This document shows, piece after piece, positions 11,461-14,219 of a DNA stretch of 64,000 nucleotides. A program made the position numbers and the translations under genes. The notes below the pieces were generated by a model. It ran no database searches. It saw nothing but the letters and a program-made list of their open reading frames with translations, and was not told the origin of the DNA. Numbering within the stretch: the first letter of the stretch is position 1; each line of letters starts with the position of its first letter. Source of the DNA: Planoprotostelium fungivorum (lineage: Eukaryota > Evosea > Variosea > Cavosteliida > Cavosteliaceae); NCBI GenBank assembly GCA_003024175.1, contig MDYQ01000093.1, forward strand, positions 1 to 64,000, in the 5' to 3' direction.

Positions 11461-12544
11461 TGAAACAGCAGATCGTCTTAAGCATCCTCCTCTTTGCGCT
11501 CGTGAGCTCGCACCAGTTCAACCCAGACTTAGTCAACAAGAGAGGCTTCTGCGGCAAGAGAGCCGAAGACTCGTGCGAGCTTTTCGCAGATGTGACAGAA
11601 GGACCGTACTACATCCATTCCATCGTTCGTGACAACATCACGTGAGTGACGACACGACTTCGTCTCCTATCGATCACGACTCACCTTCCAACAGAGAGAC
11701 ACAGACCGGAGTGCCTCTTCGTCTAGAGATCGATGTGACCGACATCACCTCCTGCGATGCACTGACCAACGCGGCCGTCGAGATCTGGCACTGCAGCGCC
11801 CGCGGCATATACTCTGCCTTCAACTCGAACACGAACCCCTCTACTACCAACTCGACCTTCCTCAGAGGCATCTATCCCGTCAATGCCACGGGTGGCGTCA
11901 CCTTCTTCACCATCTTCCCCGGCTGGTACACAGGCCGTGTGACCCACATCCACGTGAAGGTGCACTACAACGGCACAGTCAACTCGACCGGCTACTACAC
12001 TGGAGGCAGCGTGGCCCACGTCGGGCAGCTCTTCTTCACAGATGCCCTTGTAGACGAGATCGCTCAGCTGGCACCATACACTTCGAACACCAACTCGATG
12101 ACTGACATCGATGACGACAACATCTACGAGGCATCGGGAGCTCACGCCATCTTACCGTATCAGCTGGTCGGTACGAACTTGTCCGAAGGCATCGTGGCAA
12201 GGATATCGATCGGTGTCAACACTTCTCTGTCCATCTCTAGCACGGCTGACGGTGGATCGGACTCTTCTCAGGGCGGCGGCAACAGTCTCTCATCTGCTGG
12301 AGGTCCAACTGGAGGTAATGGAGGAAGTCAAGGACCTACGGGAGGCAACGGAGGCACTGTGGGATCGTCTGGGGCGATCGGTGTGACGGCCGTGGATGCG
12401 ACTGTCACAGTGACGTCGAACTCCACCGTGAACGGTACGAACGCAAACAGCAACGCCAGTGGTGATACTTCGAACGCGAGGGACAAGTCTCTGGGCTGGA
12501 CTGCGGCAGTTGTGATCACCATGGCCTTTTACTTGGTTCTGTGA
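11461..12544 (+). CDS. secreted, probably GPI-anchored intradiol ring-cleavage dioxygenase-like protein
   Basis: Two exons joined across a short intron after 11641. A signal peptide (MKQQIVLSILLFALVSSHQF) precedes the intradiol dioxygenase core: DVTEGPYYIHS near residue 45, TNAAVEIWHCSARGIYS, and GWYTGRVTHIHVKVHYNG, which carries the Tyr and His residues that bind Fe(III) in catechol and protocatechuate dioxygenases. The core ends near residue 250; a Ser/Gly/Thr-rich stalk with many N-glycosylation sites and a hydrophobic end (AAVVITMAFYLVL) suggest a GPI anchor or membrane tether. Catechol cleavage outside the cell is inferred. The family is best known in bacteria and fungi, so transfer is possible. 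Confidence 0.88.
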
Positions 12545-12988: not shown

Positions 12989-13299
12989 ATGGTAGCCGTC
13001 ATCATATCAGCCACCGGAGAGACTCTTCAAACGACACAAAGGACGTTATCAGAGATACAGTCTTACATTCAGGAGACGAAAGGCATTCCCGTGCACCATC
13101 AGGTATAGATCGACAGACGTCGCGAAGATAGCTGAACCATTGACAGGTGCTATCATTGCAAAGAGACGGTGTTCCACTGCGAAACGAAGACGTCACGAGT
13201 GAAGGACCATTATACTTGAGCATGTCTCTGAATGGAGGATGTGGAGTAGACTGTGGATGCTGTGGTCTTGACTGCGGTGTCTGCTGTAGCATTATATAA
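12989..13299 (+). CDS. ubiquitin-like protein with Gly-Gly followed by a cysteine-rich tail
   Basis: Two exons (12989-13102 and 13147-13299, 44-nt intron) encode 88 residues. Residues 1-70 align end to end with ubiquitin: an MVAVIISATGETLQ beta hairpin, an IQSYIQETKGIPVHHQ helix and loop (compare IQDKEGIPPDQQ), LSLQRDGVPLRNED, and the final strand LYLSMSLNGG, which ends in Gly-Gly like mature ubiquitin. It continues with CGVDCGCCGLDCGVCCSII, eight cysteines in 19 residues. The tail could be a cleaved cap, a palmitoylation or metal-binding site. No lysine matches K48/K63. Function unknown; it could be a conjugated modifier or a membrane-anchored Ubl of the UBL3 kind. Confidence 0.82.
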
Positions 13300-13481: not shown

Positions 13482-14219
13482 ATGGGTTCATACTTCTCCT
13501 CTTACAATCACGAGCCCAACACTCCACAACAGGACAGAACCAACTACAAGGTTTGGGACATCAATTATTTAACGATTGTTAACATACAGATCATCAGACC
13601 CTTTTGGGCGATCAATTTCAAGACAACAATGGTGCAAATCATCAAAAAGACGTAGTTCTAAACGCTAGGTTCACTGCAATCTATTTCTCGGCTCATTGGT
13701 GTCCTCCCTGTCGTCAGTTCACGCCCCAGCTCGTCACCGCTTATCAAGGTATCCAGAGCCAGCAATCCAATTCAGATGGAACAAAACCATTCGAAGTGGG
13801 TTTGGATGATGTCATGTTTCATGGAAATTGATCATCGTACGATGGATGATTCACCGTCCAAAGGTCATCTTCTCTTCGAGAGATCGATCGCAAGATGCAT
13901 TCTCTGGATATTTCTCCAGCATGCCGTGGATGGCCATTCCATACTCCGACGAGAACCTCAGAACAGATCTGATGCAGAGGTGTGTTACGTCTTTGTCGTC
14001 TATTTCTCACGTCTTCCAGATTCAGCGTGAGAACGATTCCCACTCTGATCGTGTTGGGACGTGATGGAAGCATTATCACGCGAGATGCTCGTAATCAAGT
14101 GGCGAGCTTAGGACCAAAAGTGATTCGAATTGTCATGTAGTCGTGAGAGTGACCGTGTGCAGGCGTACTCTGTGTGGGAGGAATTGGAGAGCAAGAAGAA
14201 TGCATCGGTCAATGAATAA
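13482..14219 (+). CDS. nucleoredoxin/tryparedoxin-like thioredoxin-fold protein
   Basis: Five exons give about 160 residues. The fold shows NARFTAIYFSAHWCPPCRQF, where WCPPC is the active-site motif typical of nucleoredoxins and tryparedoxins, then VIFSSRDRSQDAFSGYFSSM, PWMAIPYSDENLRTDLMQRF, and the cis-Pro segment SVRTIPTLIVLGRDG. It reduces disulfides using thioredoxin- or trypanothione-like partners. The N-terminus MGSYFSSYN fits an N-myristoylation signal, so membrane attachment is possible. The start at 13482 gives that motif and follows a purine-rich leader. Confidence 0.9.

Follow-up and report, generated by a model that had tools for sequence, protein, structure and literature searches.

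Ubiquitin and other ubiquitin-like (Ubl) precursors carry an extension after their Gly-Gly (GG), and proteases of the UCH family remove short C-terminal adducts from ubiquitin; Arg74 (and, in ubiquitin, Arg72) is used in E1/E2 recognition. A different kind of C-terminus is seen in the CaaX-box small GTPases of the Rho/Rac type, which have cysteines near the CaaX and often leucine as its X, isoleucine at this place being less classical for geranylgeranylation than leucine. In the passages of the literature that bear on the UBL3/MUB proteins, MUBs are described as prenylated through a CaaX box and as being without a C-terminal GlyGly (PMC4996978), while UBL3 is stated to have no glycines in its C-terminal region and its CAAX is called unique among ubiquitin-like proteins (PMC10511055). 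The latter source also reports CCaaX and CxCaaX in animal, plant and fungal UBL3, and the authors of another have suggested that UBL3 modifies its targets through a disulfide bond made by its C-terminal Cys (PMC6158211).

Our analysis of a 64,000-nucleotide stretch of the Planoprotostelium fungivorum genome (the window) uncovered a gene belonging to a family that, judged from its sequences, has a predicted MUB-like anchoring and yet lies outside UBL3/MUB both by its domain and by its GG. Its features are as follows:

12989-13299, + strand: ubiquitin-like gene, ATG at 12989, stop codon TAA at 13297-13299, one 44-nt intron
12989..13102, + strand: exon 1, residues 1-38 (open reading frame and splice enumeration)
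13103..13146, + strand: GT-AG intron, 44 nt, phase 0, after ..HHQ (CAG/GTATAG ... TTGACAG/)
13147..13299, + strand: exon 2, residues 39-88 and the stop TAA (open reading frame and splice enumeration)
13234..13239, + strand: codons of the GG (residues 68-69), which aligns with ubiquitin G75-G76 and is present in 12 of 12 family members
13240..13296, + strand: 19-residue tail with seven Cys (tail composition)
13240..13266, + strand: C-x3-C-x2-C-G block within the tail, shared by 10 of 12 members
13285..13296, + strand: CaaX box C-S-I-I, matching the C-x-I-[L/I] found at the end of all 12 members

The 88-residue spliced protein of the preliminary description stands, as does its remark that the gene is easily missed: eleven spliced frames reach the same stop, and this model is the longest of them when GT/GC donors from about 60 bases past the ATG and AG acceptors up to 13229 are enumerated. 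The first 69 residues of the protein form a domain with SLNGG at its end; the other 19 are the tail, CGVDCGCCGLDCGVCCSII, whose cysteines number seven and not the eight counted earlier, and whose predicted CaaX prenylation box was overlooked. The 30 bases immediately upstream of the ATG are 73-93% A+C in 11 of the 12 family genes (83% in the window gene); the exception, the gene on contig C16, has 47%, and the window as a whole 50%. As to the neighbors, an open frame at 11633-12544 on the + strand matches intradiol dioxygenase (PF00775, E 8.8e-7); the product, rich in Ser, Gly and Thr towards its C-terminus and with a hydrophobic end, might be secreted or surface-anchored, and the true start may lie upstream in another exon. 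Directly 3′ of the ubiquitin-like gene, 13583-13831 on the + strand holds an exon of the thioredoxin type (PF13905/PF00085) that contains a WCPPC motif.

A search for a paralogous family, one of the checks proposed beforehand, was successful: the same genome (36.9 Mb, 471 contigs) encodes, besides the window protein, 11 paralogues with GG, a Cys tail and CaaX. They bring the family to at least 12 genes, on contigs C27 (the window), C441, C235, C211 (two genes), C81, C24, C18, C1, C155, C176 and C16. The window protein as query recovered five further loci and the C441 paralogue raised the total to 12, whereas queries with three more paralogues found no additional family genes in the genome; the number is a lower bound because the genome search scores only the best candidates. 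Gene models were built by splice enumeration and then checked against the DNA. The window protein is 35-41% identical to the other paralogues (best match E 1.7e-11), and the family proteins span 82-89 residues, with domains of 63-70 residues that are 6-13 shorter than ubiquitin. A candidate thirteenth member at C234:55897 matched over 33 residues and was dropped because the tail is missing, none of the spliced models listed for it having a GG-Cys-CaaX end. By tblastn, no relatives were detected in the viral collection with two single-protein queries or in the bacterial/archaeal collection with one query.

The tail is cysteine-rich and nearly fixed in length. In every one of the 12, L-x-G-G leads into the tail, and the C-terminus reads C-x-I-[L/I], a CaaX-box pattern that arises at frequencies of 0.0007-0.008 in shuffles of the individual tails. 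Tail length is 19 residues in nine of the 12 (16-21 over the whole family), the cysteines number 3-8, and 10 members, the window protein included, have a further Cys N-terminal to the CaaX Cys, either adjacent to it or with one residue in between (CCaaX or CxCaaX). The maximum of eight tail Cys is shared by the genes on C155 (L006) and C1 (L020), close members with dN 0.07 and dS 0.72. Of the two options offered earlier for the tail, a removable cap or an anchor, these observations disfavor the simple cap, since in a cap clipped at once the CaaX would be useless and hence not invariant; with the CaaX kept in 12/12 tails, a lipid anchor like that of UBL3 is to be preferred. A mere anchor would not need an invariant GG, and the invariance of the GG leaves room for a lipid-tethered modifier released by cleavage behind it.

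The regularity of the Cys block also lends itself to a different interpretation, which we regard as unlikely: the C-x3-C-x2-C-G, together with further cysteines, could bind a metal or an iron-sulfur cluster beside the ubiquitin fold, with the CaaX possibly adding membrane attachment. The pattern GGCx3Cx2CG recurs in 10/12 members, and the 19-residue tail is kept in nine of the 12 even though the domain varies from 63 to 70 residues. On the other hand, C176 and C16 are without the block, C16 has just three tail Cys, and the tail is short and, in many members, Gly-rich.

The claim that the domain is ubiquitin-like fares differently for the window protein and for the family. By itself, the window protein is only weakly ubiquitin-like: its domain has 69 residues against 76 in ubiquitin, the largest gap falling just before the last strand; a Pfam search with it gave no ubiquitin match, and its matches to single-domain PDB chains begin at E 0.0098, whereas polyubiquitin chains reach very small E-values because their repeats are added up. 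Against a ubiquitin/NEDD8 profile the domain scores 9.6 bits, the best of 300 shuffles reaching 4.7. That the similarity goes beyond chance follows from the 11 paralogues with GG-Cys-CaaX, six of which share the intron position and phase. The family profile, in contrast, matches ubiquitin/NEDD8. Single-domain ubiquitin and NEDD8 chains were matched by a six-member profile at E-values between about 5e-7 and 8e-6 (within the best 60 of the 390 PDB matches listed), lower values being sums over polyubiquitin repeats. A tail-free 12-member profile yielded E 1e-7 for ubiquitin and for NEDD8, whereas an Arabidopsis MUB3 fragment scored 2 bits and human UBL3 gave no reported match. Profile-profile comparison with hhalign, using reference profiles of two sequences each, gave 97.6% (E 4.1e-12) for the family versus ubiquitin/NEDD8, with the GG on G75-G76, versus 1.0% (E 0.053) for the family and UBL3/MUB; the control comparison of UBL3/MUB with ubiquitin/NEDD8 reached 93.5%, and the method is therefore able to detect that link. 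The 12-member profile places residues 68-69 of the window protein on ubiquitin G75-G76, so that its GG indeed lies where ubiquitin ends. At E up to 0.1, PF00240 matched eight of the 12 members, the window protein not being among them, whereas PF13881 matched none and is absent from the nine families matched by any member. In shuffling tests against the ubiquitin/NEDD8 profile, the score of the C18 member was reached by one of 300 shuffles and those of the other 11 by none of 300. Thus, on profile evidence, the family domain is of the ubiquitin/NEDD8 type and not of the UBL3/MUB type.

This assignment bears on whether the tail cysteines act as proposed for UBL3, in which case they would form reversible disulfide bonds with targets and sort them, the prenyl group being carried by the CaaX Cys. 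The CCaaX/CxCaaX arrangement in 10/12 members and the above-mentioned proposal for UBL3 (PMC6158211, in the passage at issue) speak for such a role; with a domain unrelated to UBL3/MUB by profile, we consider it improbable. The alignment with ubiquitin likewise brings in the option of a prenylated precursor stored at the membrane, from which a deubiquitinase-type protease would cut after the GG and free a conjugatable modifier. It draws on the Leu-x-Gly-Gly that persists in 12/12 despite the 35-41% identity of the paralogues to the window protein, on the placement of the GG over G75-G76, and on UCH protease family matches on three contigs of the genome. Yet the positions of R72 and R74 in ubiquitin are occupied by residues other than Arg in all 12, with H, N, K or Y directly before the GG. 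Unless there are enzymes dedicated to these proteins, this makes conjugation less plausible; moreover, a protein cleaved at once would gain nothing from prenylation. We therefore regard such a precursor as rather unlikely.

One intron position, in phase 0 and directly after the conserved Gln of a G-x-P-x-x-x-Q stretch, is common to seven of the 12 genes (window, C81, C24, C18, C1, C155 and C176); a second, also in phase 0, follows TGE in C235 and both C211 genes; and two members, C441 (L003) and C16 (L007), are intronless. The family introns measure 41-49 nt. The C441 gene, though intronless, is 81-82% identical to the intron-bearing C235 and C211a genes and, for this reason, may be a retrocopy or the product of intron loss.

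We computed dN/dS for seven pairs, two of which are saturated (dS >2). The five close pairs gave 0.13, 0.19, 0.14, 0.07 and 0.10, ratios that are rough given dS values of 0.7-1.6. Within the GG-plus-tail segment, the raw number of synonymous codon changes equals or exceeds that of amino-acid changes in four of these five pairs, the exception being C441/C211a (5 synonymous versus 7 amino-acid changes). Purifying selection thus acts in the close family pairs tested, and the genes look functional. The window gene has no close partner and so falls outside this result; its divergence (35-41% identity) and the weak ubiquitin similarity of its product alone might be taken to mean that it is a chance open reading frame or a decayed copy. 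This we hold to be very improbable: the frame is open, the splice sites lie at the family position, the GG, Cys block and CaaX are retained, and the best paralogue match is as strong as E 1.7e-11.

Genes for the predicted prenylation are present in the genome. Protein prenyltransferase beta matches on three contigs read as three genes: the C327 segment is nearest to farnesyltransferase, that on C53 to GGTase-II, and the one on C15 is, by elimination, a putative GGTase-I, although the segment tested scores GGTase-II higher (1.1e-17 versus 4.6e-13 for GGTase-I). RCE1-like and ICMT-like matches were found at one locus and on three contigs, respectively. As such genes, like those for the UCH proteases, are ordinary in eukaryotes, their presence establishes no more than that the steps proposed could take place. 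An exon-wise search of the genome, of a kind that can miss genes, detected no UBL3/MUB gene: the best PF13881 match scores 21.8 bits, below the cut-off of 23, and a UBL3 query gave a best E of 0.176. The hit of that query, C7:126487, has no ubiquitin-like fold with a CaaX in any of six frames and was judged to be due to chance. Among the sub-cut-off PF13881 matches, that on C461 lies in a longer open frame with a hydrophobic end and no CaaX, C1:49485 falls within an apparent ubiquitin-S27a fusion gene, and the frame on C466 continues past the stretch read. The putative ubiquitin-S27a fusion gene on C1 has an intron inside ubiquitin, and arrays of tandem ubiquitin units, equal in PF00240 score, lie on C33, C90, C116, C180 and C321.

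Taken together, we propose as the likely interpretation that the window gene codes for a membrane-anchored ubiquitin-fold protein that is predicted to be geranylgeranylated and probably also palmitoylated. A geranylgeranyltransferase would lipidate the CaaX cysteine, an RCE1-type protease would take off the last three residues, an ICMT would methylate the resulting end, and the neighboring tail cysteines could be palmitoylated. At the membrane, the domain might serve, as in UBL3/MUB, as a docking surface for partners from the ubiquitin pathway or elsewhere, and the GG would mainly be a hinge or packing element between the domain and a structured or acylated Cys block. The CxI[L/I] end in 12/12, the Cys near the CaaX in 10/12, the prenylation genes, the low dN/dS in the close pairs and the ubiquitin/NEDD8 homology of the domain speak for this proposal. 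Against it count the strict C-x3-C-x2-C spacing, which exceeds the needs of palmitoylation; the polar residue at CaaX position a1 in all 12 members (S, N, D, E, Q or T), together with I as X in four of the 12; and the ordinariness of the prenylation genes, which do not single out this family.

The resulting proteins resemble UBL3/MUB (PF13881) in being small ubiquitin-fold proteins with a CaaX end and a Cys just before it, as relevant parts of PMC10511055 have it. They differ in having GG in 12/12, where MUBs are without GlyGly (PMC4996978, in the portion concerned), in their profile relationships (no PF13881 match in 12 members; 1.0% in hhalign), and in size, the 117 residues of human UBL3 contrasting with 82-89 and a 16-21-residue tail directly after the GG. 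With the precursors of ubiquitin and NEDD8 they share the homology of the domain, the place of the GG and an extension beyond it; however, here the extension is a conserved Cys-containing CaaX tail, the two places before the GG are without Arg, and the domain is 6-13 residues shorter than ubiquitin. With small GTPases of the Rho/Rac kind they have in common, by description, Cys close to a C-terminal CaaX whose X is often L, but they possess a ubiquitin-type domain and no GTPase domain. Among the titles listed in searches of open-access literature, none describes a ubiquitin-like protein with both GG and CaaX, and the family is, as far as such titles go, apparently undescribed; it may stand in databases under a generic name.

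The family combines GG and CaaX with a domain of the ubiquitin/NEDD8 type and has many members, while the exon-wise search, which can miss genes, detected no UBL3/MUB gene beside them; this suggests that a lipid-anchored ubiquitin fold arose here separately from MUB. A further scenario, which we view as doubtful, is that of a prenyl-tethered modifier system, in which about a dozen paralogues would reside on membranes and be freed by cleavage after the GG on demand. If true, the lipid tail would be a reversible address and the GG end would become conjugatable only on demand, unlike in UBL3/MUB, which have the anchor and no GG, and in ubiquitin/NEDD8, which have the GG and no anchor. The family also lets one ask sharply whether the conserved GG is a cleavage site or only a hinge.
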